From contig JAICYE010000011.1 of the NCBI GenBank assembly GCA_025934385.1, positions 1 through 14,279 of the forward strand: a stretch of 14,279 bases of DNA, given 5' to 3'. The stretch is from Acidimicrobiia bacterium (GTDB lineage: Bacteria; Actinomycetota; Acidimicrobiia; IMCC26256; BP-133). Within the stretch, counting starts at the first letter, position 1. Every line of letters begins with the position of its first letter. The position numbers were made by a program, and so were the translations under genes. Below the pieces are notes generated by a model. That model searched no databases. It saw nothing but the letters and a program-made list of their open reading frames with translations, and was not told where the DNA came from. Positions 671-14,279 of the stretch are shown here, piece by piece.

Positions 671-1587
671 CCGGCCGCCCCGCCCGGAGGCCACCCCGCC
701 CCGCCTTCGGCGTTGCTCGGGAACACCCCGTGTTCCTCAGGAACGCCGGAGGCGGCGGCCCGGGCCAGGGCCGCCCACTGGTCCAGGGTCAGCGCTTCCG
801 CCCGGAGCATCGGCGGGATCCCGGCGGCGGCCAGCACGGCCTCGACGCGCCCGCCGAGTGCCGGCCGGAGCGCCTGGCGGAGCGTCTTGCGCCGCTGGCC
901 GAACCCCGCCCGGGCCAGCCGGAACAGCGCTTCCGGTGACGGCACGTCGACCGGCGGCGCCGCCCGCCGCTCGAAGCGGACGACGGCGGATTCCACCTTC
1001 GGCCGGGGGACGAACACCGTCGGCGGGACGGTCCCGACCACCGAGGCGGCGGCGCGGTAGGCGACCTTCACCGAGATCGCCCCCGACGCCTGCGAACCCG
1101 GCGGTGCCGCCAGGCGCTCGCCGACCTCCTTCTGGACCATGACCGACAGCATCGACAGCCGCGGCACGTCGTCGAGGAGCCGGGCGACCAGCGGCGTGGC
1201 CACGTTGTAGGGCAGGTTCGAGACCATGGCCCAGGGGCCGTCGCCGCCGAGCAGGGCGCCGTAGTCGGCGGAGAGGGCGTCGCCGTGGACGACGCGCACC
1301 TGCGGCAGGTCGGCCACCACCTCGCCCAGCACCGGCAGGAGGTGTCGGTCGAGCTCCAGCGCCAGCACCTCCCCGCCAGGCGAGACCGCCTCGGCCAGGG
1401 CGACGGTCAGCGACCCGACGCCGGGGCCGACCTCCAGGACGCGCTGCCCCGGGCCCACTCCCGCCAACCGGACGATCCGGCGGGCGGTGTTGGGGTCGGC
1501 CAGGAAGTTCTGGCCCAGGGCGCGACTCGGCCGGAGGTCATGAGCGGCGAGGAGAGCCCGCACGTCCGCCGGAGACAGCAGCCGCAC
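667..1587 (-). CDS. rsmA: 16S rRNA (adenine-1518/1519-N6) dimethyltransferase RsmA/KsgA
   Basis: RsmA dimethylates the two adjacent adenines in helix 45 of 16S rRNA late in 30S assembly, using S-adenosylmethionine. Visible motifs are GQNFL (about residues 25-29), the SAM-binding loop VLEVGPGVGSLT, acidic LELD, the catalytic SNLPYNVATPL (the N-L-P-Y motif), FGQRRKTLRQAL and the C-terminal RAEALTLDQWAALA. The start is GTG at 1587, chosen because the GQNFL motif follows at the usual distance; no good Shine-Dalgarno is visible and no ATG fits. The product is 306 residues, slightly long for the family, because about 28 Gly/Pro/Ala-rich residues follow the last conserved block. The stop overlaps the ispE start (ATGA). 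The gene upstream, a G5/RlpA cell-wall protein, matches the rpfB-ksgA-ispE order of mycobacteria. Confidence 0.96.
   Translation of the reverse strand: MRLLSPADVRALLAAHDLRPSRALGQNFLADPNTARRIVRLAGVGPGQRVLEVGPGVGSLTVALAEAVSPGGEVLALELDRHLLPVLGEVVADLPQVRVVHGDALSADYGALLGGDGPWAMVSNLPYNVATPLVARLLDDVPRLSMLSVMVQKEVGERLAAPPGSQASGAISVKVAYRAAASVVGTVPPTVFVPRPKVESAVVRFERRAAPPVDVPSPEALFRLARAGFGQRRKTLRQALRPALGGRVEAVLAAAGIPPMLRAEALTLDQWAALARAAASGVPEEHGVFPSNAEGGAGWPPGGAAG
720..736. repeat. perfect 7-bp inverted repeat in the 3' end of rsmA
   Basis: GGAACAC (720-726), spacer CCC, GTGTTCC (730-736). It lies in the region encoding the non-conserved RsmA tail, about 50 bp before the ispE start. It could fold as an RNA hairpin on either strand or be a dyad protein site. 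No function can be assigned. Confidence 0.5.
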
Positions 1588-1604
1588 ACCGGGACCGTAG
1601 TGCT

Positions 1605-1637
1605 TCCCGGGGGCGACCCCCGGGACCCCCGGGCCCG
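1605..1637. repeat. GC-rich hairpin between the G5/RlpA gene and rsmA; possible partial copy of the 50-bp element
   Basis: The 54 bp between the two genes hold an inverted repeat, CCCGGGGG, loop CGA, CCCCCGGG (1606-1624). It is followed by a second C/G block that lengthens the structure. It resembles the second half of the 50-bp element found in ychF, mtnP and the GGDEF gene: the same seven-pair stem as in the mtnP copy, with loop CGA instead of ACA and a one-base length change after it. No U-tract follows in either direction, so a classical terminator is not indicated. It may attenuate or process the transcript between the two genes. Confidence 0.5.
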
Positions 1638-1641
1638 GGCC

Positions 1642-2640: not shown

Positions 2641-2747
2641 CGCGGCACGCTAACGAGGCGTTTTGGCGAGCGGCAAACGTCCCCACGCTGCGTCCCACCG
2701 GCCGGAAACACCCGTTCATATTCGTTGCCCGTGAGGTATCTGTGACC
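2641..2747 (-). promoter_or_regulatory. 107-bp spacer upstream of the G5/RlpA gene, with a 6-bp dyad and a weak promoter candidate
   Basis: This is the only sizeable gap within the metG-to-ispE cluster and is visibly lower in GC than its surroundings. A dyad TGAGGT (2732-2737), seven-base spacer, ACCTCA (2745-2750) overlaps the tatD stop codon. On the minus strand GTCACA and GAATAT are separated by 17 bases, a weak -35/-10 pair. An internal promoter for the cell-wall gene, separate from metG-tatD, is plausible. I do not see the conserved blocks of a c-di-AMP (ydaO) riboswitch, which sometimes precedes rpf genes. Confidence 0.35.
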
Positions 2748-3560
2748 TCAGAGCGAAGTGTTACTTGACAGCGGTCGTGGGCCCCGGGAGGGCCAGAAGA
2801 ACGCCAGGGCGTTGGCCCGGGTGACCTCGGCCACCGTTTCCACCGGCTCCTGACGGGCGGCGGCCAGCGCCGCCCCGACCGCCGGCAGGAACGCCGGCTC
2901 GTTGGTCCTGCCCCGGTGGGGGACGGGTGCCAGGAAGGGCGAATCGGTCTCCACCAGCAGGCGGTCGGCCGGGGTTGCCGCCGCCGCCGCCCGCAGGTCG
3001 TCGGCCGTCTTGAACGAGACGATCCCGGAGTACGACAGCCAGCAGCCGAGCCCCAACGCCCGTTCCGCCTCGGCCGGGCCGCCGGTGAAGCAGTGGAAGA
3101 CCGTCCGGGGCGGGACCCCGTCCGATTCGAGAACGGCGAACGTCTCCACCCAGGCGTCCCGGGAGTGGATGATCAGCGGCAGCCCCCGGTCGCGGGCCAG
3201 GCCGAGCTGGGCCCGGAAGGCCGCCTCCTGGGCGTCGGGCTCGGAGTGGCGGTAGTAGAGGTCGAAGCCCGCCTCCCCGATGCCGACGACGCGGTCGGCG
3301 CCGGCCAGCTCGACCAGACCGGCCCACTCGTCGGCCAGCCGGGAGGCGTCGTGGGGATGGAGCCCGACGGTGGCCCACACACAGGCGAACTCCCCCGCCA
3401 GCCGGACGGCCTCGGTGGACGTGGCCAGGTCGGTGCCGATGCAGACCATGCGCTCGACGCCGGCCTCGACCGCCCGGGCCACCGCCTCGTCGGGGGTCGG
3501 GCCGCGGCCCCCGAACTGGAGATGGCAGTGGGCGTCGATCCAGGCGACCGGCGCGCTCAT
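2748..3560 (-). CDS. tatD: TatD-family metal-dependent hydrolase (deoxyribonuclease)
   Basis: TatD proteins are metal-dependent TIM-barrel hydrolases with DNase activity. The 270-residue product shows the full metal-site series: DAHCHL near the N-terminus (residues 9-14), GIGEAGFDLYYRHS with the bridging Glu, PLIIHSRDAW, FHCFTGG and VETDSPFLAPVPHRG near the C-terminus. The chosen ATG at 3560 overlaps the metG stop (ATGA), with GGAAGG just before it. An in-frame upstream extension exists but lies inside metG and has no conserved sequence. The C-terminus runs about 15 residues past the usual NALAFF ending. metG-tatD adjacency is widespread in bacteria. Confidence 0.95.
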   Translation of the reverse strand: MSAPVAWIDAHCHLQFGGRGPTPDEAVARAVEAGVERMVCIGTDLATSTEAVRLAGEFACVWATVGLHPHDASRLADEWAGLVELAGADRVVGIGEAGFDLYYRHSEPDAQEAAFRAQLGLARDRGLPLIIHSRDAWVETFAVLESDGVPPRTVFHCFTGGPAEAERALGLGCWLSYSGIVSFKTADDLRAAAAATPADRLLVETDSPFLAPVPHRGRTNEPAFLPAVGAALAAARQEPVETVAEVTRANALAFFWPSRGPRPLSSNTSL

Positions 3561-5071
3561 CCTTCCAGCCGCGGGAACAACGCCGGGCCGCGCTCCAGCG
3601 TCGAACCCGCCGGCATCGACCCCCAGGCGGCGGCATCGGGCAGGCGTTGGTCCTCCGGCGTGCCCGGCAGCCCGAGGCGCCGCCACAGCTCGCCGGCGGC
3701 GTCGGGGATGATCGGCGCCGCCAGCAGCGCCACCAGCCGCAGGGTCTCCAGGCAGTCGCCGAGGACGGCGGCCACCGCCGCGTCGTCGCCCGCCTTCTGC
3801 CGGGCCCACGGCGCCCGGTCCTCGATATAGGAGTTGGCCGAGCGGATCAGGTCCCACACGGCGCCGAACCCGCCGGCGAAGTCGAGTCGGGTCATCCCCG
3901 CCGAGAGCGCCTCGAGCGCCACCGCCGACTGCTCCCGCAGCGGCCCGTTCTCCCGCTTCTCGGGCGCCACCCCGCCGAGGTAGTTGACGGCCATGTTCAG
4001 CACCCGGCTGGCCAGGTTCCCGAAGTTGTTGGCCAGGTCGGCGTTGTAGCGGGCCACCATGGCCTCGTAGCTGAAGTCGCCGTCGGGCCCGAAGTTCTGG
4101 TCGCGGAGGAAGTGATAGCGCACCCCGTCCGACCCGAAGGTCGCCACCAGGTCACCGGGGGCGATCTGGTTGAGGCGGGTCTTGCTCATCTTCTCGCCGC
4201 CGACCAGGAGCCAGCCGTGGGCGAAGACGCACTTCGGCGGCGCCTCGCCGGCGGCCATCAGCATGGCCGGCCAGTAGACGGCATGGAAGCGGAGGATGTC
4301 CTTCCCCACCAGGTGGTAGTCGACCGGCCAGAAGTGGTCGAAGCGCTCCCGGTCGGAGCCGTAGCCCATGGCCGTGCAGTAGTTGATGAGGGCGTCGAAC
4401 CAGACGTAGGCCACATGGCGGGGATCCCAGGGGATCGGCACGCCCCAGCTGATCGACGTCCGGGAGATGGAGAAGTCCTGCAGGCCCTGACGGATGAAGC
4501 CCAGCACCTCGTTGCGACGGGTCTCGGGCTGCACCGCCTCGGGGTGGGCGGCGTAGTGCTCGAGCAGCCGGTCCTGGTAGCGGGAGAGCTTGAAGAAGTA
4601 GTTCTCCTCCCGCATCCGCTGGACGGGTCGGCCGTGGATCGGGCAGTGCCCGTCGACCAGCTCGTCCTCCACGTAGTAGGCCTCGCAGGCCACGCAGTAG
4701 AGGCCCTCGTAGGTGCCGAGCTCGATGTCGCCGGCGTCGTAGACCTTCTGCAGCATCTCGGAGACGGCCCGGTAGTGGCGGGGCTCGGTGGTGCGGATGA
4801 AGTCGTCGTTGGAGATCCGAAGCTCTTTCCAGGCCTCTCTGAACCGTTCACTCGTCCGGTCGGCCCAGTCCTTGGGTGTCAGCCCCTGGGCCTCGGCGGC
4901 CTGGGCCATCTTGAGCCCGTGCTCGTCGGTACCGGTGAGGAAAAACACCTCATCTCCCCACAAACGTCGCCAGCGGGCCAGCACGTCAGCGGCGATGGTG
5001 GTGTAGGCGTGGCCGATATGGGGAACGTCGTTGACGTAATAGATGGGAGTGGTGACGGAGAAGGGTGGCAC
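3557..5071 (-). CDS. metG: methionyl-tRNA synthetase
   Basis: Class I aminoacyl-tRNA synthetase charging tRNA-Met, 504 residues. The HIGH signature appears as PHIGHAYT (about residues 17-24). The catalytic KMSKT is in GGEKMSKTRLN (about 291-301). The connective peptide holds a single zinc knuckle, CVAC...CPIHGRPVQ (about 127-152). Other family blocks are TGTDEHG, WFDALINY and DLANNFGNLASR. There is no C-terminal Arc1p-like tRNA-binding domain, as in many short actinobacterial MetRS. The start is GTG at 5071, giving MPPFSVTTPIYYVNDVPH. It is supported by a GAGGAAG Shine-Dalgarno six bases upstream on the minus strand. The stop overlaps tatD. It is the first gene of the minus-strand metG-to-ispE cluster and divergent from the AbrB-like regulator. 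Confidence 0.97.
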   Translation of the reverse strand: MPPFSVTTPIYYVNDVPHIGHAYTTIAADVLARWRRLWGDEVFFLTGTDEHGLKMAQAAEAQGLTPKDWADRTSERFREAWKELRISNDDFIRTTEPRHYRAVSEMLQKVYDAGDIELGTYEGLYCVACEAYYVEDELVDGHCPIHGRPVQRMREENYFFKLSRYQDRLLEHYAAHPEAVQPETRRNEVLGFIRQGLQDFSISRTSISWGVPIPWDPRHVAYVWFDALINYCTAMGYGSDRERFDHFWPVDYHLVGKDILRFHAVYWPAMLMAAGEAPPKCVFAHGWLLVGGEKMSKTRLNQIAPGDLVATFGSDGVRYHFLRDQNFGPDGDFSYEAMVARYNADLANNFGNLASRVLNMAVNYLGGVAPEKRENGPLREQSAVALEALSAGMTRLDFAGGFGAVWDLIRSANSYIEDRAPWARQKAGDDAAVAAVLGDCLETLRLVALLAAPIIPDAAGELWRRLGLPGTPEDQRLPDAAAWGSMPAGSTLERGPALFPRLEG

Positions 5072-5220
5072 GCGTGTCTTCCTCGGCTTCTCGACTCAGG
5101 CCTTACGATACGACGCCGTCACGGGTCAACGGTCCGCAAGGCACCGGCCCCCAGGGGCCGCCCGCCCCGCCCCGGGCCGTCCCGGCGCACGACTCGAAGC
5201 GTGAGGCGCGCTCGACGGGC
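5072..5220. promoter_or_regulatory. divergent promoter region between metG and the AbrB-like gene
   Basis: The 149-bp gap must hold the start signals of both genes. TACGAT at 5104-5109 (plus) and TATCGT at 5105-5110 (minus) are overlapping -10-like hexamers. TTGACC on the minus strand (5124-5129) is a -35-like hexamer, but only 13 bases from that -10. GGCCCC (5146-5151) and GGGGCC (5154-5159) form a short inverted repeat. No T-box or riboswitch fold is recognisable. Exact promoter positions remain uncertain. Confidence 0.35.
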
Positions 5221-5448
5221 ATGACCCGCAAGGTCGACGAACTCGGACGCATGGTCCTCCCCAGCGAGCTCCGCAAGCGGTTCCGCATCCACGAGGGCGA
5301 CCACCTCGCCATCCACGTGGAAGAGGAGCGGATCGTGCTGACCAAGGTGGAGACGGGGTGCGTCTTCTGCGACTCCACGGCCGGCCTCGTCAACTACCGG
5401 GACAAGCTCATCTGCGACGACTGCATGGCCTCGATCCGCAACATCTGA
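5221..5448 (+). CDS. AbrB/SpoVT-type DNA-binding regulator with Cys4 zinc-ribbon-like C-terminus
   Basis: A 75-residue protein. Residues about 3-45 are a swapped-hairpin AbrB domain: TRKVDELGRMVLPSELRKRF, then IHEGDHLAIHVEEERIVLTKVE, which matches the start of transition-state regulators such as Bacillus AbrB. The remainder has C-x2-C (CVFC) and C-x2-C (CDDC) separated by 14 residues, a likely zinc-binding tail of the kind seen in some clostridial and actinobacterial AbrB paralogs. The ATG at 5221 begins exactly at the conserved domain. The frame stays open upstream to about 5065, but that sequence is Pro/Arg-rich and overlaps the metG start, so I reject the longer version. No strong Shine-Dalgarno is visible. 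It is a single-gene unit, divergent from metG and convergent with rsmI (10-bp gap). Its target genes cannot be read from the sequence. Confidence 0.88.
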   Translation: MTRKVDELGRMVLPSELRKRFRIHEGDHLAIHVEEERIVLTKVETGCVFCDSTAGLVNYRDKLICDDCMASIRNI

Positions 5449-5458
5449 TTTCGTCTCC

Positions 5459-6355
5459 TCACGACCCTGCCCCCCTCCGGAGGGACGTGGCGAGGCTATA
5501 GGCCCGGCGGCGGCTGACGCCGAGGCGACCGGCCACCGCCGCGGCCGCATCCCTGGTCGACGCCCCGCCCTCAAGTTCCGCCCGCAACGCCGCCTCGAGC
5601 GCGTCGTCGGGCGGCTCGGTGCCGTGGCCGGGCCCGGACGGCGCCGGGCCGATCACGATCACCTGCTCGCCCCGGGGCTCGGGGCCCGCTCCGGTTCCGG
5701 CTCCGGCCGCCGCCGGCCCGAGCGTTCCCCGCCAGACGGTCTCGAACTTCTTCGTCAGCTCCCGGGCCACGGCGACCGGCCGGTCGGGGCCGAAGGCGGC
5801 GGCGAGATCGGCCAGGGTCGCCTCCAGCCGGTGGGGTGCCTCGAACAGCACGACGGTGCGGTCCTCGCCCTGGAGGGCCTGGAGGCGGGCGGCGCGCTGG
5901 CGGCCCTTGCGGGGCAGGAACCCCTCGAACACGAACCGGGCGGTCGGCAGCCCCGACACGACCAGCGCCGAGAGGACGGCGCTCGGCCCCGGGACCACCT
6001 CGACGGCCACGCCGGCCGCCAGCGCGGCGGTCACCAGCCGCTCGCCGGGGTCGGAGATGCCGGGCATCCCGGCGTCGGTGACGCACACCAGCCGCTCCCC
6101 CCGCTCGACGATCCGGCCCACGAGCCTGGCGGCGAGTTCCGCCTCGTGGGGACCGTGGAAGGAGACCAGCCGCCCGCCGGCCGGGATCCCCAGCGCGGTG
6201 AGGAACGGCCGGGTCCGGCGGGTGTCCTCGGCGGCGATGACGTCGGCCGTGGCCAGCGCCTCCACCGCCCGGGCCGAGACGTCGCCCAGGTTCCCGATCG
6301 GCGTCCCCACCAGGATGACGGCCGGGCGGGCTTCGCCGCCCTCGGGCTGGGTCAC
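5459..6355 (-). CDS. rsmI: 16S rRNA (cytidine-1402-2'-O)-methyltransferase RsmI
   Basis: RsmI uses S-adenosylmethionine to methylate the 2'-O of C1402 in the 30S decoding centre. The 298-residue product has the tetrapyrrole-methylase-like fold signatures: ILVGTPIGNLGD near the N-terminus, AAEDTRRT, LVSFHGPHE, VTDAGMPGISDPG, VVPGPSAVLSALVVSGL, FEGFLPRKGRQR, VLFEAPHRL and ARELTKKFETVWRG. A C-terminal helical tail (GVSRRRAYSLATSL) is also typical. The start is GTG at 6355, four bases overlapping the DUF192 stop (GTGA), with GAGGTG upstream as a good Shine-Dalgarno. A Gly/Ala-rich linker sits before EQVIVIGPAP. It is the last gene of the seven-gene minus-strand cluster and ends 10 bp from the convergent AbrB-like gene. 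Confidence 0.96.
   Translation of the reverse strand: MTQPEGGEARPAVILVGTPIGNLGDVSARAVEALATADVIAAEDTRRTRPFLTALGIPAGGRLVSFHGPHEAELAARLVGRIVERGERLVCVTDAGMPGISDPGERLVTAALAAGVAVEVVPGPSAVLSALVVSGLPTARFVFEGFLPRKGRQRAARLQALQGEDRTVVLFEAPHRLEATLADLAAAFGPDRPVAVARELTKKFETVWRGTLGPAAAGAGTGAGPEPRGEQVIVIGPAPSGPGHGTEPPDDALEAALRAELEGGASTRDAAAAVAGRLGVSRRRAYSLATSLRRGAGS
5473..5484. repeat. 12-bp perfect palindrome at the convergent gene ends
   Basis: CCCTCC directly followed by GGAGGG within the 3' end of rsmI, about 25 bp beyond the AbrB-like stop. It could help terminate the plus-strand transcript, since the 10-bp space between the two stops holds no hairpin. There is no T-tract, so the assignment is weak. 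Confidence 0.25.
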
Positions 6356-6690
6356 TCCTTCACCTCGACGGTGTCGCCCGGCCGGAGCTGCCACCGCTCG
6401 AAGGCGCCGGCCGCCGCCTCGACGACGAACCCCGACCGCCACACCACCCGGGTGACCCGCCACGGCTCCACCGTCCGGGTCCGCAGGACGACGCCGCGCC
6501 GGTCGCAGAACGCCACGTCGATCGGGAAGCGCATTCCCAGCGTGTGGATCTGGCGGCAGGGCCGCAGCACGAGCGCTCCGGTCACCTCGGCCGAATCCCG
6601 GCGGCCGAGAAGCCCCTGGGCCCGCTCCCGCGTCCCCCGGGCGACCTCCGCACTGGCCAGGACGTCCCCTTCCCGCACGAGCCAGGCCAT
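6352..6690 (-). CDS. DUF192 (UPF0127) family protein
   Basis: A 112-residue protein of unknown biochemical function. It carries the family's central blocks: RAQGLLGR (about residues 23-30), then QIHTLGMRFPIDVAFCDRRGVVL (about 47-69), and a C-terminal EAAAGAFERWQLRPGDTVEV. No signal peptide or membrane segment is visible, whereas many DUF192 proteins are exported, so this looks like the short cytosolic actinobacterial form. The ATG at 6690 lies 15 bp after ychF, and the stop overlaps the rsmI GTG. Its place between ychF and rsmI suggests a housekeeping role, but nothing in the sequence fixes one. Confidence 0.85.
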   Translation of the reverse strand: MAWLVREGDVLASAEVARGTRERAQGLLGRRDSAEVTGALVLRPCRQIHTLGMRFPIDVAFCDRRGVVLRTRTVEPWRVTRVVWRSGFVVEAAAGAFERWQLRPGDTVEVKE

Positions 6691-6705
6691 CGCGCCGCCG
6701 GGCCT

Positions 6706-7821
6706 TCAGACGTTGAAACGGATCTCCAGGACATCGCCATCCTGGACCTCGTAGTCCTTGCCCTCGACGCGGAGCTTCCCCTGCTCCTTGGCCCGGGCCC
6801 ACGAACCGATGGAGAGCAGCTCGTCCCACCGGATGACCTCCGCCCGGATGAACCCCCGCTGGAGGTCGGAGTGGATGACGCCGGCGCACTCCGGAGCCCG
6901 GGCGCCGGCCCGGAACGTCCAGGCCCGGCTCTCCTTGTCGCCGGTGGTGAGGAAGGTCCGCCGGCCGAGGAGGTGATAGGCGGCGTGGGCCACGCGGGGC
7001 ACGACGCCCTCGCCGAGGCCGAGGCCCTCCAGCAGCTCCGTCCGCTCCCCGGGGTCGAGCCGGGCCGCCTCCGCCTCGAGCTGCACCGACACGGCCAGGG
7101 CCCCGGGGGACGGGGGGTGTCCCCCCGACAAGGGCGGCGTGAGCCGCTCCGAACCGAAGGGGGCGGCCAGCTTGGCGGCGTCGTCGAGCTGGTCCTCCCC
7201 GAGGTTCACCACGGTGAGGACGGGCTTGGTGGTCAGCAGGAACGACGGCTTGAGCAGGTCCCGCTCCTCGGTCGTGAGTGCCGCCCGGTAGAGCGGCGTG
7301 CCCTCGTCGAGCAGGACCTGGGCCTTCTCCAGAGCGGCGATCTCGGCCAGCAGCGACTTGTCGCCCTTGGCCGCCTTCTGCTGGCGGTGGACCCGGCCCT
7401 CCACGGCGGCTGCGTCGGCCAGCACCAGCTCGAACTCCAGCGTGGCGAGGTCGTCGGCCGGGTCGGGGGCGCCACCGGTCGGGGTGACCACCGCCGGGTC
7501 GTCGAAGGCCCGCAGGACGTAGACGAGGGCGTCGACCTCCCGCAGGCTGCCGAGGAACCGGTTCCCGAGGCCCTCGCCGGTGCTGGACCCCTTGGCCAGG
7601 GCGGCGATGTCGACGAACTCGACCCCGGCCGGCACGACCTTGCGGGACTCCGACATCTCCGCCAGCTTCCACAGCCGCTCGTCGGGCACCTGGGCGATGC
7701 CCACCGTCGTCTCGGTGGTGGAGAAGGGGTGGGACGCCACGACGGCGTTGCCACCGGTCAGGGCGTTGAACAGGCTGGACTTCCCCGAGTTGGGCAGGCC
7801 GACGAGGCCGAGCTTCTCCAT
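6706..7821 (-). CDS. ychF: YchF/Obg-like redox- or ribosome-associated ATPase, with an in-frame repeat insertion
   Basis: YchF is a TRAFAC-class P-loop NTPase that prefers ATP and binds ribosomes. The 371-residue product has the P-loop GLPNSGKSS (about residues 8-16), switch region FSTTETTVG, a G3-like DIAALAKGSSTGEGLGNRFL and a G4-like NLGED. The C-terminal TGS domain contains AGVIHSDLQRGFIRAEVI and ends DGDVLEIRFNV. The start ATG at 7821 begins directly at MEKLGLVG. Between APFG and ALAVSVQLEAEA, residues about 225-241 (ERLTPPLSGGHPPSPGA) are encoded by one copy of the 50-bp palindromic element. Homologs run almost directly from one flank to the other, so this is an added surface loop before the coiled-coil/TGS part. 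The frame is intact and all catalytic motifs remain, so the protein is likely functional. Confidence 0.95.
   Translation of the reverse strand: MEKLGLVGLPNSGKSSLFNALTGGNAVVASHPFSTTETTVGIAQVPDERLWKLAEMSESRKVVPAGVEFVDIAALAKGSSTGEGLGNRFLGSLREVDALVYVLRAFDDPAVVTPTGGAPDPADDLATLEFELVLADAAAVEGRVHRQQKAAKGDKSLLAEIAALEKAQVLLDEGTPLYRAALTTEERDLLKPSFLLTTKPVLTVVNLGEDQLDDAAKLAAPFGSERLTPPLSGGHPPSPGALAVSVQLEAEAARLDPGERTELLEGLGLGEGVVPRVAHAAYHLLGRRTFLTTGDKESRAWTFRAGARAPECAGVIHSDLQRGFIRAEVIRWDELLSIGSWARAKEQGKLRVEGKDYEVQDGDVLEIRFNV
7099..7148 (-). repeat. 50-bp palindromic element, copy A (inside ychF)
   Basis: Read on the minus strand it starts AGCGGCTCACGCCGCC, a hairpin GCGGC / TCAC / GCCGC. A short spacer CTTGT follows, then a second hairpin CGGGGGG / ACA / CCCCCCG, then TCCCCCGGGGCC. 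It aligns without gaps to copy B (45 of 50 identical) and copy C (42 of 50). It is in the same orientation as ychF, with element base 1 at codon position 2, and adds about 17 residues. Confidence 0.9.
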
Positions 7822-7832
7822 CGGGCCTGAGG

Positions 7833-8531
7833 CTACGCCGCGGCGGTTTCGAGGATGTTGTCGAGTTCGGCCAGAGCCGCCCAGGGGTCGCGCACCAGGA
7901 CGGCCTGCAGCCCCACCTGCCGGGCCGACTCCACGTGGCGGCGGGTGTCGTCGAGGAACACGGCCGCCTCCGGGGCGACCTCGAGCCGCTCGCAGGTGAG
8001 CCGGAAGATGGCGGGGTCGGGCTTGCGGAGCCCGACGTCGCAGGAGTCGACGACGACGTCGAAGAGCTCGAGCGGGATCGAATCCTTCCAGTACCGGCCC
8101 CACTCCCGGACATTGTTGGTCAGGATCGCCGTCCGGTACCCCCCGGCCCGCAGCTCCCGCACCCGGTGGACCATCATCCAGTGCACGCCGACGCCGAGCT
8201 CCCGCAGGAACTGGGCGTACACACCGAGGTCGAGCGGTCGGCCGAGGGCGACCTCGGAGCGGACCACGAGCCGTTCGTGGAACTCGTCGAGCGTCAGGCG
8301 CCCGGTCTCGAGCAGGTGCCAGTCGTGCGCCTCGGGGGCGCCAGGTAAAGCTGCCGAGTGGTCGGGGATCGCCTCGGTCGGGCCCTGGGGCGAGGCGCCC
8401 TTCCCGAACAGCAGCTGGGCCAGCGACTGCTCGGGGTAGCCCATCCGCCGCTCGAATTCGGCGATGCCGGCGAAGGGCGTGGTCGACAGGACGCCGCCGT
8501 AGTCGAAGATGACCGCCTCGATCTGCACCAT
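7833..8531 (-). CDS. HAD-superfamily hydrolase (haloacid dehalogenase-like)
   Basis: A 232-residue protein of the haloacid dehalogenase superfamily, probably a cytosolic phosphatase of unknown substrate. Motif I is VIFDYGGVLST (nucleophile Asp at residue 10), motif II is AILTNN, motif III is the Lys in GLRKPDPAIF, and motif IV is AVFLDDTRRHV. In motif I the usual second Asp (D-x-D) is Gly, as in the FDFGGVL-type group of HAD proteins; this group includes the epoxide-hydrolase/phosphatase-like branch. The cap region (residues about 15-95) is helical and contains a Gly/Pro/Ala-rich stretch, GKGASPQGPTEAIPDHSAAL, before the DWHLLETGRLTLDEF helix. The ATG at 8531 starts just before motif I; no good Shine-Dalgarno is seen. 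It lies 33 bp after uppP and 11 bp before ychF, probably in the same operon. Confidence 0.88.
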   Translation of the reverse strand: MVQIEAVIFDYGGVLSTTPFAGIAEFERRMGYPEQSLAQLLFGKGASPQGPTEAIPDHSAALPGAPEAHDWHLLETGRLTLDEFHERLVVRSEVALGRPLDLGVYAQFLRELGVGVHWMMVHRVRELRAGGYRTAILTNNVREWGRYWKDSIPLELFDVVVDSCDVGLRKPDPAIFRLTCERLEVAPEAAVFLDDTRRHVESARQVGLQAVLVRDPWAALAELDNILETAAA

Positions 8532-8564
8532 GACGTCCGGGAGGCTAGCGGCGCGGCCGCCGCG

Positions 8565-9338
8565 TCAGCGCAGCCGGATCACCAGTGCCGACAGCGGGGC
8601 GAAGGCGAAGAGGTACCAGGCGAAGACGTTGAGCGAGTGGGTCCGCACGAACCGCAGCAGGTAGTGGATGGAGGCGAACCCCACGACTCCCGACACCAGC
8701 GTCCCCGTGAGCGAGGCGGCCGAGATCACCAGATCGCCCTTGGCCAGGTCGAGGACGCCGGCGCCGCCGATGGCCGGTATCGACAGCAGGAACGAGAAGC
8801 GGGTCGCCTCCTCGCGGGACAGACCGGCCAGGAGGCCCGTCCCGATCGTGGAGCCCGACCGGGAGATGCCGGGCAGGATGGCCACCGCCTGGGCGGTGCC
8901 GATGGCCGCCGAGCGCCCGTCGTCGAGCTCGTGGCGGACGGCCCGCTCCCCGAGCTTCTCCGTAGCCACCAGGATGCAAGCGGTGCAGAACAGCTCGATG
9001 CAGCTCTCGTAGGGTCGCTGGAACGAGTCCTCGAAGAAGCCGCCGAAGGCCAGGCCGGCGATGACCGCCGGGATCGTGCCGATGACCAGGAACCGCAGGA
9101 TCCGCCGGCTGGTGGCGACGTCGGGCCCCCGGCCCAGCGCCCCGAGGACCAGCCCGATGATCTCGTTGCGGAAGTAGATGATCAGGGCGACCAGCGTGCC
9201 CATGTGGAGCAGGACGGTGAGCCCGAGCGGTGGCTCTCCCCACCCCAGCATCCCGGGCACGAGGACGAGGTGGCCGCTGGAGGAGACGGGCAGGAACTCG
9301 GTCAGCCCCTGGACGAGGCCGAGAATGATCTCGTGCAC
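8565..9338 (-). CDS. uppP: undecaprenyl-diphosphate phosphatase (BacA/UppP)
   Basis: Integral membrane enzyme that dephosphorylates undecaprenyl pyrophosphate, recycling the lipid carrier for peptidoglycan and other wall polymers; overexpression gives bacitracin resistance. The 257-residue product has both signature motifs: GLTEFLPVSSSGHL (about residues 11-24, with the catalytic Glu and Ser) and LPGISRSGSTI (about 155-165, catalytic Arg). It has seven or eight hydrophobic segments along its length, as expected. The start is GTG at 9338, immediately in front of the conserved N-terminus HEIILGLVQGLTEF. It lies only 3 bp after the mtnP stop, so it is co-transcribed and probably translationally coupled. 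Confidence 0.96.
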   Translation of the reverse strand: MHEIILGLVQGLTEFLPVSSSGHLVLVPGMLGWGEPPLGLTVLLHMGTLVALIIYFRNEIIGLVLGALGRGPDVATSRRILRFLVIGTIPAVIAGLAFGGFFEDSFQRPYESCIELFCTACILVATEKLGERAVRHELDDGRSAAIGTAQAVAILPGISRSGSTIGTGLLAGLSREEATRFSFLLSIPAIGGAGVLDLAKGDLVISAASLTGTLVSGVVGFASIHYLLRFVRTHSLNVFAWYLFAFAPLSALVIRLR

Positions 9339-9341
9339 GTC

Positions 9342-10226
9342 CTACGGTAGCGACCGCTCCAGCGGGCCGAGCGCTTCTCCGCACCGACAGGTTCGCTTCT
9401 CCGGCACGGCCGCGATCACGTCGAAGAGCAGGCCCCGCAGCCGGGCGAGGTTCGACGTGAAGAACCCGAACACCTCGGCCTGGGTGACCGACCCCACCCC
9501 GGCGTTCGGAAGCGGCTCACGCCGCCCTTGTCCGGGGGACACCCCCGGCCCCCCGGGCTCGACGCCGGTGTCGTAATCGGTGATGAGGGCGATGCCGGCG
9601 TAGCAGAGGCCGAGCTCCCGGGCCAGGTAGGCCTCGGGGTACTGCGTCATGTTGATGACCTCGAACCCCTGGCTGCGGTACCAGCGGGACTCCGCCCGGG
9701 TCGAGAACCGGGGCCCCTGCACGACGATCACGGTGCCGGACGGGTGGACGGTGATGCCGGCCGCCCGGGCCGCCTCCACCGCCACCGCCGAAAGCTCGGC
9801 GCAGTAGGGATCGGCGTAGGACACGTGGTGGGCCACCGGACCCTCGTAGAAGGTGTCGGCCCGGCCCCAGGTGCGGTCGACGAGTTGGTCGGGGACGACG
9901 AAGTCGCCCGGCGCCACGCGGGGCTGCAGCGACCCGGCGGCGCAGGGGCCGATGAGCCGGGTGACGCCGACCTGGCGCATGGCCCAGAGGTTGGCCCGGT
10001 AGTTGATGCGGTGGGGCGGCAGCTCATGGCGGCGACCGTGGCGGGGCAGGAAGGCCACCCACCGGCCACCGACGTCGCCGATCGTCACCGGCGCGGCCGG
10101 CGCACCGAACGGCGTCTCGAGCGTCACGTCCACGGCGTCGTCGAGGAACGAGTAGAACCCGGAACCCCCGAAGACCCCGATGTCGGCCTGGGCCTCGGCC
10201 GGAGCCGGGGCCGCCGAGGACGTCAC
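9342..10226 (-). CDS. mtnP: S-methyl-5'-thioadenosine phosphorylase (MTAP/PNP family), with an in-frame repeat insertion
   Basis: Family enzyme cleaving methylthioadenosine with phosphate to adenine and methylthioribose-1-phosphate, in methionine salvage. The 294-residue product shows IGVFGGSGFYSF (phosphate loop), FLPRHGRRHELPPHRINYRAN, GPCAAGSL, VQGPRFSTRAESRWYR, INMTQYPEAYLARELG and LITDYDTG. The Asp pair in TDYD favours an adenine-type base over a PNP (6-oxopurine) substrate, although some actinobacterial members of this group are annotated simply as PNP. The start is GTG at 10226, overlapping the fmdB-type stop (GTGA). An in-frame extension farther upstream lies within that gene and is not conserved. 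Between YDTGVE and VTQAEVF, residues about 222-239 (PGGPGVSPGQGRREPL) come from the 50-bp element in antisense orientation. Homologs have only a few residues there, so the loop is an insertion close to the C-terminal helix. Confidence 0.9.
   Translation of the reverse strand: MTSSAAPAPAEAQADIGVFGGSGFYSFLDDAVDVTLETPFGAPAAPVTIGDVGGRWVAFLPRHGRRHELPPHRINYRANLWAMRQVGVTRLIGPCAAGSLQPRVAPGDFVVPDQLVDRTWGRADTFYEGPVAHHVSYADPYCAELSAVAVEAARAAGITVHPSGTVIVVQGPRFSTRAESRWYRSQGFEVINMTQYPEAYLARELGLCYAGIALITDYDTGVEPGGPGVSPGQGRREPLPNAGVGSVTQAEVFGFFTSNLARLRGLLFDVIAAVPEKRTCRCGEALGPLERSLP
9511..9560 (+). repeat. 50-bp palindromic element, copy B (inside mtnP, antisense to it)
   Basis: Read on the plus strand: AGCGGCTCACGCCGCC, spacer CTTGT, hairpin CCGGGGG / ACA / CCCCCGG, then CCCCCCGGGCTC. 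It is ungapped against copy A with five mismatches. Two of these exchange a base pair in the second hairpin (G-C in A, C-G in B). The short flank TTCGG before the element is also shared with copy A. It is opposite in orientation to mtnP. Confidence 0.9.
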
Positions 10227-10552
10227 GCGATCTTGCTGTCCGACTTCGACGAGGTGCCCGACGACCCGCCCGACGATGACGACGACCCGCCCGACGTCGA
10301 GTCGGAGGACGTCGAGTCGGAGGACGACGACGACGCGACGTCCTTGTCGGTCACCTTGTGGGCGCCGCCCTTCCCGCTCCGGTTGTCGGTCTTGTAGAAC
10401 CCGCTGCCCTTGAAGACGATCCCGACCGGCGAGAAGACCTTCCGCAGCTTCCCGCTGCAGCTCGGGCACTTCGTCAGCGGCTTGTCGGAGAACGACTGGA
10501 CCACTTCCAGGTGCTCGCCACAGCTGTTGCAGCGGTACTCGTAGGTGGGCAT
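10223..10552 (-). CDS. FmdB-family putative regulatory zinc-ribbon protein with Ser-rich tail
   Basis: A 109-residue protein. The first ~60 residues match the FmdB family: MPTYEYRCNSCGEHLEVVQS, then KCPSCSGKLRKVFSPVGIVF, then KGSGFYKTDNR. Two CxxC pairs form a zinc ribbon. The remaining ~45 residues are a Ser/Gly/Thr-rich, low-complexity tail ending SKSDSKIA. FmdB proteins were named from a proposed regulator of formamidase genes, but their role is generally unknown. The ATG at 10552 has GAGG five bases upstream. It is the first gene of the seven-gene minus-strand cluster, overlaps mtnP (GTGA), and has a CIRCE operator 14 bp upstream of its start, which suggests heat or protein-stress control. 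Confidence 0.9.
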   Translation of the reverse strand: MPTYEYRCNSCGEHLEVVQSFSDKPLTKCPSCSGKLRKVFSPVGIVFKGSGFYKTDNRSGKGGAHKVTDKDVASSSSSDSTSSDSTSGGSSSSSGGSSGTSSKSDSKIA

Positions 10553-10566
10553 GGCAACCTCGGTCG

Positions 10567-10593
10567 TTAGCACTCGGGACGCTTGACTGCTAA
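10567..10593. promoter_or_regulatory. CIRCE element (HrcA operator)
   Basis: TTAGCACTC (10567-10575), nine-base spacer, GACTGCTAA (10585-10593). The CIRCE consensus is TTAGCACTC-N9-GAGTGCTAA, so 17 of 18 arm bases match with the exact spacer length. It lies between the Shine-Dalgarno of the fmdB-type gene and a -10 hexamer, the usual CIRCE position over the transcription start. It should be a repressor site for HrcA, controlling the fmdB-type operon and possibly also the divergent GGDEF gene. Confidence 0.85.
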
Positions 10594-10622
10594 TCATAGC
10601 TGCCGCATTGACAGGGTGTCCC
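10593..10622 (-). promoter_or_regulatory. predicted sigma-A-type promoter of the fmdB-type operon
   Basis: On the minus strand, -10 TATGAT (10593-10598) lies 18 bp from a -35-like GGGACA (10617-10622). The -10 abuts the CIRCE element, so HrcA binding would cover the start point near 10586. The resulting leader is about 34 nt and contains GAGG (10558-10561) before the ATG. The -10 is strong and the -35 only moderate. Confidence 0.6.
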
Positions 10623-10645
10623 CGAGGTGTCGGAATGGGCCCACC

Positions 10646-11929
10646 ATGGGGCCGCCTCCGTTCACGCGCTCGCTGGCCGTTGCCCTCGGCGTGGCGGCGG
10701 GCTGGCTGCTGGTCGTGGCCGTGATCGCCGCCCTGGCCGGCGGCCTCGTGGGCATCAGCATCCTGGCCGGCGTCGGGGCGGTGATGGCCGCCGCCTGCGG
10801 GGTGGTCACCTGGCGGACGGCCCGGCGGCTCGAGGCCTGGCTCGGCGAGCAGCTCCACGACACGGCCCGCGACCTCGAGAGCTCGCAGCAGGCCTTCCGG
10901 CGGGCCATCGCCCGGCTCGGCGACACGCTGGCCGCCACCCACAACCGGGAGAAGATCCTCGAGGCCGTGTCGGAGACCGCCCAGCTGGCGGTCGGGGCCC
11001 AGCGGGGCGTCTTCTACGAGTACATCCCGGCCCGGAGGGTCCTCCTCGCCCGGTCCGGGGTCGGGCCCGACGCCCCCGAGCTGAGCCTGCCGCTGGGGAC
11101 GGGCCTGGCCGGCACCTCGGCCGCCGAGCGGGCGCCGGTCAGCTACCCCGGGTCCGCGGTCTCAGGCGGCTCACACCGCCGCGATCAGGGGGACACCCCC
11201 TGTCCCCCGGGGCCGGTGTTCCCCGAGCCCGAGGTGGCCACGGCCATGGCCGTCCCGTTCTTCAGCCGCGGCGACCTGCTCGGCGTGGTCGCCGTCTACG
11301 GCCACGGCGAGGAGGACACGTTCGGCCCCGACGACCTCGAGACCCTCGTCACCCTGGTGACCCAGGCCGGCACGGCCGTCGACAACGTCTCGCTCCACGA
11401 GGAGGCCCGGCGGCTGTCGATCACCGACGGCCTCACCGGCCTGTGGAACCGCCGCCAGCTCGACCTGCGCTGCCAGGAGGAGCTGGAGCGGGCCATCCGC
11501 TTCGGCCGGCCGGTCGGGGTGGTGTTCTGCGACGTCGACCACTTCAAGGACGTCAACACCGAATGGCACCACCAAGGCGGCGACGCCGTCCTCGTCGAGG
11601 TGGCCCAGCGACTGTCGGCCGCCACCCGGGAGATCGACGTCGTGGCCCGCTACGGCGGCGAGGAGTTCGTCCTGCTGCTGCCCGAGACCGACCTGGCCGG
11701 CTCCAGGATCCTGGCCGAGAAGGTCCGCCGGGCGATGGGCGACGAGCCCGTGGAGCACGCCGGCCGCACCCGGACGGTCACGCTGTCGCTGGGCGTGGCC
11801 GCCTATCCCCACAGCGGGACCACCGTCCGCACGCTGCTGGCGGCGGCCCAGGAGGCGCTCGGCCGGGCCAAGTCGAACGGGCGGGACCGGGTGGAGGAGG
11901 CCCAGCCCAAGATGCGGAGCACCGGCTGA
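10646..11929 (+). CDS. membrane GAF–GGDEF diguanylate cyclase, with an in-frame repeat insertion
   Basis: Predicted to make the second messenger c-di-GMP from two GTP. The 427-residue product has two N-terminal membrane segments (about residues 9-30 and 33-55), then a helical linker. A GAF domain follows (about 85-235, with LPLGTGLAGTSA and AMAVPFFSRGDLLGVVAVYG). The GGDEF domain is at about 250-415: LTDGLTGLWNRRQL-type start, FCDVDHFKDVN metal site and active site RYGGEEF. RxxD (REID) sits five residues before GGEEF, the inhibitory I-site. I chose the ATG at 10646 just before the membrane segments; an in-frame GTG at 10616 is the alternative. Inside the GAF domain, residues about 174-190 (GGSHRRDQGDTPCPPGP) come from a copy of the 50-bp element. 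galU follows after 17 bp, suggesting co-transcription and a link between c-di-GMP and surface polysaccharide supply. Confidence 0.92.
   Translation: MGPPPFTRSLAVALGVAAGWLLVVAVIAALAGGLVGISILAGVGAVMAAACGVVTWRTARRLEAWLGEQLHDTARDLESSQQAFRRAIARLGDTLAATHNREKILEAVSETAQLAVGAQRGVFYEYIPARRVLLARSGVGPDAPELSLPLGTGLAGTSAAERAPVSYPGSAVSGGSHRRDQGDTPCPPGPVFPEPEVATAMAVPFFSRGDLLGVVAVYGHGEEDTFGPDDLETLVTLVTQAGTAVDNVSLHEEARRLSITDGLTGLWNRRQLDLRCQEELERAIRFGRPVGVVFCDVDHFKDVNTEWHHQGGDAVLVEVAQRLSAATREIDVVARYGGEEFVLLLPETDLAGSRILAEKVRRAMGDEPVEHAGRTRTVTLSLGVAAYPHSGTTVRTLLAAAQEALGRAKSNGRDRVEEAQPKMRSTG
11165..11214 (+). repeat. 50-bp palindromic element, copy C (inside the GGDEF gene)
   Basis: GGCGGCTCACACCGCC (hairpin GGCGG / CTCACA / CCGCC), a diverged spacer GCGAT, then hairpin CAGGGGG / ACA / CCCCCTG and TCCCCCGGGGCC. 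It is ungapped against copies A and B. It is sense-oriented, with element base 1 at codon position 1, a frame different from copy A. An alternative 8-bp stem GGGGGACA / TGTCCCCC is also possible. Confidence 0.9.
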
Positions 11930-11946
11930 CCGGCGAAGATGCGTCC

Positions 11947-12828
11947 ATGAGCAAGGTTCGGAAAGCGGTCATCCCGGCGGCGGGGCTCGGGACGCGGTTC
12001 CTCCCGGCCACCAAGAGCCAGCCCAAGGAGATGGTGCCGGTCATCGACAAGCCCACCATCCAGTACGTGGTGGAGGAAGCGGTCGGCGCCGGCATCACCG
12101 ACATCCTCGTGATCACCGGCCGGGGGAAACGGGCCATCGAGGACCACTTCGACCGCAACTTCGAGCTCGAGTTCTACCTGGAGCAGGGCAAGAAGAACGA
12201 GGAGCTCGAGCAGGTGCAGGCCATCTCCGAGATGGCCGACATCCACTACATCCGCCAGCGCGACCCGCTCGGCCTGGGTCATGCGGTTTCGGTCGCTCGA
12301 CAGCATGTGGGGTCGGAGCCCTTCGCCGTCCTGCTCGGCGACGACATCATGGTCGACGACTCGAAGCTGCTGCGGTCGATGCTCGACGTCTACGACCGGT
12401 ACGGGCGCTCGGTGGTGGCCGTCCTCGAGGTGCCCCGCGAGGACATCAGGAACTACGGCTGCGTCACTCCCGAACTGATGGAGGAGAACCTCGTCCGCAT
12501 CCGGTCGATCATCGAGAAGCCCAAGCCGGAGGACGCCCCCTCCAACCTGGCCGTCATCGGCCGCTACGTCTTCACGCCCGAGATCTTCGACGCCCTCGAT
12601 CGGATCACGCCCGGCGCCGGCGGCGAGCTGCAGCTCACCGACGCCATCAGCCTGCTGCTCCAGACCCAGACGGTATTCGGGTACGCCTTCGAGACCGGCC
12701 GCTACGACATCGGCAAGAAGATCGACTTCCTCCGGGCCACCGTGGAACTGGCGCTCGACCGCGCCGACCTCGGCGACGAGTTCCGGGCCTTCCTGGCCGA
12801 CCTCGTCCAGCGGCGCAAGATCGTCTAG
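11947..12828 (+). CDS. galU: UTP–glucose-1-phosphate uridylyltransferase
   Basis: Makes UDP-glucose from UTP and glucose-1-phosphate for glycolipids, polysaccharides and galactose metabolism. The 293-residue product has the nucleotidyltransferase signature AVIPAAGLGTRFLPATKSQPKEMVPV split over residues about 7-32, followed by IDKPTIQYVVEEA. It also has the metal-binding VLLGDDIM, the IIEKP sugar-binding block and FETGRYDIGKKIDFL near the C-terminus. Length matches bacterial GalU. The ATG at 11947 follows the GGDEF stop by 17 bp, with only a weak GAAG as Shine-Dalgarno. The gene is convergent with the following minus-strand gene. Confidence 0.97.
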   Translation: MSKVRKAVIPAAGLGTRFLPATKSQPKEMVPVIDKPTIQYVVEEAVGAGITDILVITGRGKRAIEDHFDRNFELEFYLEQGKKNEELEQVQAISEMADIHYIRQRDPLGLGHAVSVARQHVGSEPFAVLLGDDIMVDDSKLLRSMLDVYDRYGRSVVAVLEVPREDIRNYGCVTPELMEENLVRIRSIIEKPKPEDAPSNLAVIGRYVFTPEIFDALDRITPGAGGELQLTDAISLLLQTQTVFGYAFETGRYDIGKKIDFLRATVELALDRADLGDEFRAFLADLVQRRKIV

Positions 12829-12830
12829 GG

Positions 12831-12857
12831 CGCGTCCCGGGGGCGCCGGGTGGCGCG
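12831..12857. terminator. possible bidirectional terminator hairpin between convergent galU and the surface-protein gene
   Basis: The 35-bp gap between the stops contains nested arms: CGCG (12831-12834) with CGCG (12854-12857), and CCCGG with CCGGG inside. The helix is imperfect because of unequal internal bases and has no T-tract, as is common for high-GC actinobacterial terminators. Its position between convergent stops is the main support. Confidence 0.4.
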
Positions 12858-12863
12858 GCGGGG

Positions 12864-14279
12864 TCAGCCGAAGAGGCCGGGCAACAGCTTCGCAGTGGAC
12901 AGGGCCGGCAGCGTCACCGGCGACGTCGGTGGGCCGGCCGGTGGCGTCGCCGGAAGCGCCGGAACGACGGCCTTGGCCAGCGCCGGCAGGGCGGGTACGA
13001 GGGCCGGCAGGGTCGGAACCAGCGCCGGCAGGGCGGGCGCCGTCGCCGGCGGCGGGGCGGACGGCGGCGCGGCGGACGGACTCTGGCCGCCGTTGCCGTT
13101 CCCATTGACCGGCGCCGGGCCCGGGCCTATCACGTGCGGGCAGTCCTCGTGGGTGATGACCTGGCCCATCTGGAGCGTGACCCCCGAGGGGTACTTGTCG
13201 GAGTCGTAGAACAGCGTGTGGGCCGACGTCCCCACGAAGCTCAGCCGTATGCGGACGCCGATCTGGTGGCCGGCTGCCACCGTGTGGGGCGTGGACAGTG
13301 GGATCGGCACCTGCGTCTCGGTGGGCGCGGCCGCCGACGCCTTGGCCGCCACGTCCTTCGGGCTCTGCCCGATGATGCTGATCGCCCCCTTGGGGTCGAT
13401 GTCGACGAGGTCGCCGGTCAACAGCCCCGCCACCGCCTCGCTCGGGCCCTGGATGAAGGCCCGGAGCTTGGCCGACCCGCCGAGGGTCGCCGGCTCGGTC
13501 AGCGGCGGGGTGGTGAACAGCGGCTCCTTGCCGGTGCTCGTGGCCTGGCCGAAGGTGGCGGCCAGCCGGCGCTCGGGAGCGCGGTTGCCGAGCACGCCGT
13601 TCGGCAGCGGCCCGACGTAGGTGAACTGCGGGTCGGCCGGGAAGGCGGCGACGCCCGTGGCCTTGTCGTCCTGGAAGCGGTAGTCCTTGGTCGTGACCGG
13701 GGTGAACCCGGTGAGCGACGAGCACGGCTTCGGCTGGGCGCCGAACACCGAGATCAGGCTGGTGATGAAGCGCTTCTCGACCGCGTCGTCGGCCGGGCCG
13801 AGGTCCATCGGAGGCGCCACCGTGCCGACGGCGCCGATATCGACGGTCCACTTGCCGAAGGCCAGGCCGGTGAAGCGCTGGGCCGCCTTGGCCTGGTCGG
13901 GGTCGAGCTTGTGGAGGTCGAGGTCGAGCGACGTCGTGCCGGACGCGGCCGACGCCTCCGTGGTGCCGACCTCCTTGCCGGCGGCGTCCTTCACCGTGAT
14001 GTCGTAGGTGGTGACGCCGACGAACGGCAGCGTCCCGCCGTTGCTGATGACCTTGACCCGCTCGCTGCCGGGGTCGACCTGGATCGTGTGCGTCAGCTTG
14101 CCGACCAGCATCGGGGCCCGCTCGTTGTAGGCGTAGGTGCGGGAGGGGTGGGCCAGCCCGGCGAGGACGGCCTGGTCGCGGGCGGCCTGCTGGCCTTCGA
14201 GGATCGACTCGGTGTCGGAGACCGCCTTGCCCTTCACGCTCTCGGCGAGGTCCACGGCGCCCGAGGCGTCGGTGTAGCC
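12864..14279 (-). CDS. C-terminal part of a large, probably exported protein (possible subtilase/X-Pro-peptidase-like), 5' end beyond window
   Basis: The frame is open from the window edge (first residues GYTDASGAVDLAESV) to the stop at 12864, about 471 residues. I do not recognise the family with certainty. The first residues resemble the end of a subtilisin-type catalytic domain (GYTDASGAVDLA). A beta-rich segment follows (HTIQVDPGSERVKV, VGVTTYDITVKDAAGKEVG), compatible with a pre-peptidase-type or jelly-roll domain. Residues in the middle to C-terminal part (LTEPATLGGSAKLRAFI, then HTVAAGHQIGVRIRL and TLFYDSDKYPSGV) resemble the beta-jelly-roll of X-Pro dipeptidyl-peptidase/CocE C-termini. 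The last ~75 residues are Pro/Ala/Val-rich with a 7-residue repeat (LPALVPA type), ending KLLPGLFG. There is no LPxTG motif or C-terminal membrane helix. Only two Cys are visible (KPCSS and EDCPH). Export is inferred from composition; the N-terminus is not available. Confidence 0.6.
   Translation of the reverse strand, partial: GYTDASGAVDLAESVKGKAVSDTESILEGQQAARDQAVLAGLAHPSRTYAYNERAPMLVGKLTHTIQVDPGSERVKVISNGGTLPFVGVTTYDITVKDAAGKEVGTTEASAASGTTSLDLDLHKLDPDQAKAAQRFTGLAFGKWTVDIGAVGTVAPPMDLGPADDAVEKRFITSLISVFGAQPKPCSSLTGFTPVTTKDYRFQDDKATGVAAFPADPQFTYVGPLPNGVLGNRAPERRLAATFGQATSTGKEPLFTTPPLTEPATLGGSAKLRAFIQGPSEAVAGLLTGDLVDIDPKGAISIIGQSPKDVAAKASAAAPTETQVPIPLSTPHTVAAGHQIGVRIRLSFVGTSAHTLFYDSDKYPSGVTLQMGQVITHEDCPHVIGPGPAPVNGNGNGGQSPSAAPPSAPPPATAPALPALVPTLPALVPALPALAKAVVPALPATPPAGPPTSPVTLPALSTAKLLPGLFG
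12981..13043. repeat. 21-bp tandem repeat, three units, in the surface-protein tail
   Basis: Units 12981-13001, 13002-13022 and 13023-13043 each carry GCCGGCAGGG near the start and diverge toward the end. In the minus-strand frame each encodes a heptad of the form LPALVPx. They make up part of the Pro/Ala-rich tail and are in frame. Confidence 0.75.

Follow-up and report, generated by a model that had tools for sequence, protein, structure and literature searches.

A clade-specific family of 30- and 51-bp hairpin elements, probably mobile, inserted in frame in genes of Acidimicrobiia

Our analysis of a 14,279-nucleotide stretch from an Acidimicrobiia bacterium (contig JAICYE010000011.1, positions 1 to 14,279 of the forward strand, hereafter the window) and of its nearest relatives revealed GC-rich hairpin repeats of 30 or 51 bp that very likely form a family of mobile elements, very small, non-autonomous and specific to this clade. 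Three copies of the long form (A, B and C) lie in the window, each inside a different gene, accompanied by a probable degenerate copy of the short form:

7102..7152, minus strand: copy A, 51-bp hairpin element in ychF (profile score 51.0), encoding SERLTPPLSGGHPPSPG in frame; core GGGGGACACCCCC at 7113..7125, minus strand
9507..9557, plus strand: copy B, 51-bp hairpin element in mtnP, a gene on the minus strand (profile score 42.1), encoding PGGPGVSPGQGRREPLP; core GGGGGACACCCCC at 9534..9546, plus strand
11161..11211, plus strand: copy C, 51-bp hairpin element in a GAF-GGDEF gene (profile score 43.4); core GGGGGACACCCCC at 11188..11200, plus strand
About 1603..1632, plus strand: probable 30-bp copy in degenerate form, intergenic, its loop reading CGA in place of ACA (seen by eye and in a loop census; below the 4-bit listing cut-off of the profile search)
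6706..7821, minus strand: ychF, host of copy A (Pfam YchF-GTPase_C, MMR_HSR1)
9342..10226, minus strand: mtnP (methylthioadenosine phosphorylase), host of copy B (Pfam PNP_UDP_1; homologues bear the same name in the sources)
10646..11929, plus strand: GAF-GGDEF gene, host of copy C (Pfam GGDEF, GAF)

The Pfam domains support all three host open reading frames (ORFs), as expected from the original prediction, made on the window alone, that the repeats lie inside intact genes. The coordinates and identities of the 50-mers which it had compared were also right (45 of 50 positions without gaps between A and B, 42 of 50 between A and C, to which we add 39 of 50 between B and C); the next best match to copy A in the window reaches 30 of 50, and the maximum in 60 first-order Markov simulations was 33. 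The proposed repeat family therefore stands, but not as a single 50-bp palindrome, since the window copies are 51-bp composites (21 + 30), in which a 21-bp hairpin (GGCGGC-TCMC-GCCGCC, with a TCAC or TCCC loop) is placed ahead of a 30-bp unit also found alone. This short form consists of a GGGGG/CCCCC stem, usually one variable pair longer, an ACA loop and a CCCCCGGG tail.

The nearest relatives were located via MtnP (best 80 of at least 567 loci kept), which led to the loci L001 (JAUZEY, 85%) in genome G001, L002 (JAUZEX, 82%) in G002 and L003 (JAICGL, 79%) in G003, three sister metagenome-assembled genomes (Actinomycetota/Acidimicrobiia, completeness not stated) of a clade with genome sizes of 4.5-5.3 Mb. 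Together with 120 stretches from these genomes, the three loci and the window made up a sample of 124 sequences (1.19 Mb, 71% GC), which is not a random one, as the stretches were picked for holding the exact core. Profiles built from exact-core copies and applied at 12 bits or more identified 174 copies in this sample and none in its reversed sequences. The short profile was the best fit for 118 of them and the long profile for 56, so that the short form is the commoner one in this sample. Conservation ends sharply beyond position +23 and, in the long form, also before -31. ACA is the loop of 151 GGGGG-NNN-CCCCC hairpins in the sample, the next in frequency being found in 8.

The family is dispersed throughout the three genomes and restricted to their lineage. 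The exact core is present 90, 77 and 92 times in G001, G002 and G003, respectively (0, 0 and 1 for the reversed control). Covariance models matched the long form at least 56, 35 and 52 times (E≤0.001) and the 30-bp unit at least 136, 131 and 125 times (E≤0.01), these counts being lower bounds because only 150 candidates were scored per genome, and those for the unit including matches to the long form's right half. A covariance search of relatives, as originally suggested, thus revealed at least 125 further units in each genome; four other genomes yielded 0 or 1 match with the short model. Across 395 genomes of the class the core was detected in 44, at most three times in any of the 392 other than G001-G003, and among 61 genomes around G003 it was present in six, in more than one copy only in G001-G003. 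A 25-base short-form pattern occurred in 2 of 396 genomes of the phylum (28 times in G003 and once in G429), G001 and G002 lying outside that sample. Searches of viral contigs (one 19-base pattern), of phages and plasmids (one 55-base copy) and of Rfam (gathering thresholds) gave no match. A literature text search, with figures, supplements and other libraries outside its range, did not find the core string, and none of the titles listed describes a family like this one in Acidimicrobiia or Actinobacteria.

Both filled and empty orthologous sites exist, which allowed us to define the inserts exactly at the protein level. In an alignment of the window YchF with 29 homologues (from the best 120 listed), the insert of copy A comprises exactly 17 residues, as in KLAAPFG[SERLTPPLSGGHPPTPG]DDALAV (P0121) versus KLAAPFGDDALAV (P0127). 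The same length was obtained for copy B in MtnP (32 homologues and the window, from the best 120 of 7,999), as in EG[PGGPGVSPGQGRREPLP]EAGVEP (P0001) versus EGEAGVEP (P0005). In the window itself, one or two neighbouring codons have been lost at these sites. An addition of 16-18 in-frame residues had been foreseen, which holds and can be narrowed to 17 for the YchF and MtnP of relatives; the proposed homologue alignments yielded these boundaries. The mtnP site of copy B is empty in L001, L002 and L003, and the GGDEF orthologues without copy C show a gap of 17 residues in L002 and 16 in L001.

The YchF site is empty in 12 of the 30 aligned proteins, and the remaining 18 have peptides reading as this hairpin family: the long form in three (window, P0121, P0125), a longer relative of the short form (PGGPGVSPGSAxST) in nine and a short insert in another frame in six. 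Of 33 proteins, 22 have nothing at the MtnP site, which follows DYDTGVE, and an element peptide is present there in 11, namely the long form in one frame in five (window, P0001-P0004), the long form in another frame in two (P0009, P0011) and the short form in four (P0031, P0034, P0037, P0040). Short-form inserts are seen at the N-terminus of MtnP homologues too, with two of them in P0033. As judged from the types of insert (assigned from the peptide, with DNA read for the window and L003), both sites appear to have been filled more than once. Unrelated residues of the same length were found at neither site. Along with the many copies in relatives, these filled and empty orthologues support the initial view of an ORF-tolerated mobile palindrome, similar in concept to the Rickettsia palindromic elements (RPEs).

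At the DNA level, 12 of 28 chosen pairs of orthologous places were credibly anchored, the other 16 having been dropped when, as judged by eye, the anchor word matched an unrelated place. The net length differences in the 12 were 51, 48, 47, 45, 30 (five times), 24, 24 and 22. All nine of those inside genes are multiples of three:

51: L198 versus L213
48: window versus L001 (GGDEF)
45: window versus L001 (MtnP)
30: L217 versus L182; L213:8464 versus L198; L200 versus L117; L218 versus L197; L227 versus L127
24: L003 versus L001

The differences outside genes are 47, 22 and 24, the last one partly in a gene (L194 versus L215). In this latter pair, the counterpart in G002 keeps the long copy of G001 (L194:11854-11908) minus 24 bp of its middle, suggesting that elements can decay through internal deletion. 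More broadly, 39 of the 108 genes with in-gene copies have an orthologue-like protein in another sampled genome, and several of these proteins lack exactly the element-encoded residues.

No target duplication could be recognised (for 55 long copies, the best of many offsets gave 9.1% identical 3-mers versus 3.2% expected). The tetramer CTGT is found near the 5' end in 31 of 165 relatives' copies (10- or 11-base stretches) versus 2 of 168 control 11-mers, and is not reliably present as a target at empty sites. The lack of a duplication would also fit an enzyme-free spread, in which replication template switching or recombination between copies copies the hairpins, as would the presence of different forms at one site in different relatives and the head-to-tail tandems that we observed, with periods of 51 (L225, L195, L129), 30 (L190) and 24 (L113, L153). 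On the other hand, local copying is not expected to produce sharp outer boundaries or to reach more than 100 unrelated places, and we consider this explanation distinctly unlikely. Partial cores 24 bp apart were also seen (L113:10626-10656 and 13276-13330; L153:1185-1238), and look as if one unit had entered another or had been duplicated inside it.

The majority of the sampled copies reside in genes. With ORFs from a codon-usage gene finder (coding density 92%), 120 of the 174 copies are wholly in ORFs, 44 are intergenic and 10 are partial, where random placement expects about 153, 10 and 12. Of 118 in-gene copies, 25 lie 15 or fewer residues from a protein end (12 expected; some of the N-terminal cases are possibly start miscalls). 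From the 79 complete ORFs of 150-900 residues, 30 hosts were drawn at random; Pfam domains were present in 29 of them, including AIR synthase-type (PurL-like), NusG, FliF, FliH, GcvH-like, CoA ligase and cytochrome bd subunit I, and by comparison of coordinates the insert is clearly within the best domain stretch in 4 of the 30. For the three window copies, a location in loops with little or no sequence in the respective families had been proposed; this applies to YchF and MtnP but not to copy C (residues 171-189), which is inside the stretch matched by GAF models (99-246). In a structure model of MtnP (mean predicted local distance difference test, pLDDT, 63.3) the insert falls in a stretch under 50 (215-240), and a poor model of YchF (mean pLDDT 44.8) was not used. 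Among the sampled hosts, a gene with a phage integrase domain (L145:4069-4719, plus strand) contains a long copy.

The excess of intergenic copies (44 versus 10) and the high conservation of core and loop might be taken to indicate host recognition or regulatory sites (uptake, Chi-like or terminator) selected in place. This we find hardly credible, given that whole blocks are gained between orthologues, the flanks of some being 92-96% identical, and that in-gene copies occur in every frame and in both orientations.

The choice of frame is nevertheless not free, as stop and Cys frames are avoided. With TCCC, the consensus units have no stop in any of the six frames, and TCAC puts a TGA in one of them; a TCAC loop was found in none of the 20 copies read in the TGA frame versus 17 of 22 in other frames (p=1e-7). 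Of 65 opposite-strand copies, 2 are read in the GCPP-encoding (Cys) frame (p=3e-9 versus one third). Since a stop would keep an ORF from being called intact, broken genes were sought around the 54 other copies. A blastp comparison with the 1,232 sampled proteins, in which short flanks and poor cores were skipped, identified no split gene; coding signal was detected on both sides of seven copies, for one of them in the same frame and for three in different frames of one strand. Within the limited power of this test, these results support the view that the inserts are translated and that gene-breaking ones are lost. Removal from the message or skipping in translation is accordingly hard to sustain. 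Mini-introns and bypassing elements, the latter known from yeast mitochondria, do resemble the repeats in size and hairpins, but frame matters here, both in the avoided frames and in the nine of nine length differences that are multiples of three, making this alternative highly improbable.

The hairpins themselves are conserved, and some of their stem pairs covary (all statistics given here ignore kinship among copies). The pair -1/+13 is of the Watson-Crick type in 54 of 55 long copies (37.4 when shuffled) and 86 of 113 short copies (71.2), the pooled value (140 of 168 versus 68) showing an excess inflated by pooling two subfamilies; five mis-registered control pairs gave no excess pairing (p 0.067 to 0.99). 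Covariation in the long form was also seen for -21/-10 (52 of 55 versus 41.6) and -18/-13 (50 of 55 versus 42.2). In 30 long copies, 96.9% of cells are paired (54.7-81.0% in slid controls), with 8 double changes versus 1.3 when shuffled. A possible third variant of ~42 bp, with a 5' leader TGTGCTG..CGC.GATCC, is suggested by the short-form copies L003:3091-3122 (minus strand) and L187:7445-7475 (plus strand), and also by YchF inserts of ~14 residues (P0128, P0131, P0147 and others).

Among known systems, RPEs are described, in the accessible text of the respective papers, as dispersed hairpin-forming elements residing in frame in unrelated conserved genes and also between genes (PMC2229807, PMC10969869), with 44 insertions in genes of R. 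conorii (PMC10969869) and no mobiliser named. The in-frame insertion into unrelated conserved genes is found here too. RPEs, however, are given as 105-146 or about 150 bp long and belong to Rickettsia, in contrast to the modular, GC-rich 30/51-bp units of actinobacteria. The present elements work like RPEs, from which they would be set apart by size, modular make-up and host; judged by the features compared, they belong to none of the known families considered.

A kinship with repetitive extragenic palindromes (REPs) is, in our judgement, unlikely. The repeats could be divergent GTAG REPs, moved by a REP-associated tyrosine transposase (RAYT) that escaped detection because the assemblies are incomplete, or else be related to CGTC REPs. 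The former are described as small dispersed palindromes, some intragenic, that go with RAYT transposases, and the latter as small hairpins with no known transposase, some in genes (PMC3733652); REPs are also listed for Acidimicrobium ferrooxidans in another report (PMC12306157). Size, hairpins, dispersal and in-gene copies are thus shared. Moreover, immediately ahead of its right stem the long form, but not the short one, has an unpaired TGTC (T 84%, G 91%, T 96%, C 98%), and CGTC tags are stated to be changed to TGTC in many repeats (PMC3733652). Conversely, the CGTC REP described there has a stem of 8-9 bp starting with AT pairs, a loop of 4-5 and a CCA tail, compared with a G-C rich stem of 5-7 bp without AT pairs, a loop of 3 and the CCCCCGGG tail rather than CCA. 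The aligned copies have no constant unpaired GTAG (single copies have GTAG by eye). A Y1/RAYT gene (PF01797) was found in 0 of the 3 genomes G001-G003, unlike in RAYT systems, the control being positive in 5 of 14 known genomes. Finally, REPs are reported as mostly intergenic (PMC3733652), in contrast to most copies sampled here.

Miniature inverted-repeat transposable elements differ in having a target-site duplication, not found here, and terminal inverted repeats, not seen upon inspection of the consensus ends. Two adjacent GC-rich hairpins, as in the 51-bp form, make up the double-hairpin elements of fungal mitochondria, which are organellar. The small dispersed repeats of cyanobacteria, the subject of Elhai et al. 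(2008), are very small mobile repeats as well.

As to a possible mobiliser, no transposase was present in the 7 genes scanned with Pfam out of 40 lying between neighbouring copies (41 pairs); the seven encode orotidine decarboxylase-like, PhzF-like, AMP-binding, signal peptidase II, periplasmic binding, FliG and isochorismatase proteins. TnpB is represented by 1-2 genes per genome. A single match to RVT_1 was found in each of G001, G002 and G003. Those in G003 and G001 are orthologous retron-type reverse transcriptases (RTs), with 74% and 78% identity in two segments. The match in G002 is a group II intron RT; the retron RT is present in this genome as a contig-end fragment (62% identical). 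Directly upstream of the RT in G003 and G001, and next to the RT fragment in G002, lies a conserved leader of 170 nt with inverted repeats GCGACAGCG...CGCTGTCGC at its borders:

L232:1000-2382: retron-type RT (G003)
L233:481-1968: retron-type RT (G001)
L246:3058-3227, plus strand: 170-nt leader
L245:6262-6431, plus strand: 170-nt leader
L247:3703-3872, minus strand: 170-nt leader

Leader and RT together resemble a retron of the kind that PADLOC names 'RT_other/RT_outgroup'. Elsewhere among 100 genomes around G003, the retron RT gave weak matches only, in G007 (50%, one stop) and G036 (41%, partial). The leader does not match the element profiles, nor is there a sequence link between RT and elements, and co-occurrence of the two is weak evidence as G001-G003 are sisters. 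The RT is therefore a candidate mobiliser only. A more elaborate version, in which ORF-adapted selfish hairpins made of modular multiple-of-three units spread as folded RNA or single-stranded DNA through copying by the retron-type RT of the clade, is in our opinion distinctly unlikely.

Taken together, the block-wise gain, the refilling of sites, the conserved hairpins and a burst confined to one clade speak for a mobile hairpin on which an enzyme acts in trans. Units would insert as blocks with no recognisable target duplication, some permissive sites being filled repeatedly, and a trans-acting enzyme may recognise the folded hairpin as single-stranded DNA or RNA. As the lengths are multiples of three and the sequence is mostly stop-free, genes stay intact when a unit enters a linker, a loop or a protein end; insertions that break genes are presumably purged. 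Tolerated selfish DNA, with no host benefit shown, is the simplest reading.

Several observations weigh against such a mobile family. No mobiliser was found, and mobility at the strain level was not seen. The refilled sites could equally reflect one unit replacing another, and the net difference is neither 30 nor 51 in 6 of the 12 anchored pairs. Genes are depleted of copies (120 seen versus 153 expected), and openness in six frames is ordinary, as 60% and 50% of composition-matched shuffles are open as well. Relative to shuffling, the pairs -23/-8, -22/-9, -20/-11, -19/-12 and -2/+14 covary marginally or not at all; the slid control +3 has a higher covariation score than the structure (0.107 versus 0.094); and fold energies are only modestly better than those of shuffles (z -0.4 to -2.4 for six single copies).

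Elsewhere in the window (12977-13050), 21-bp direct repeats are found in the Pro/Ala/Leu-rich C-terminal part of the ORF 12864-14279 (minus strand).

In-frame mobile palindromes in bacterial genes have been described, in the sources as far as accessible to us, above all for Rickettsia. The present case adds a different and smaller family in actinobacteria, most sampled copies of which are in genes. Conserved proteins of this clade gain roughly 10 or 17 amino acids per basic unit (30 or 51 bases), and segments resembling GGPGVSPG or GGVPPTTAAG in them should be annotated with caution, as insertions. The availability of both filled and empty orthologues makes it testable how such hairpins move and how far mobile elements reshape the loops and ends of proteins.

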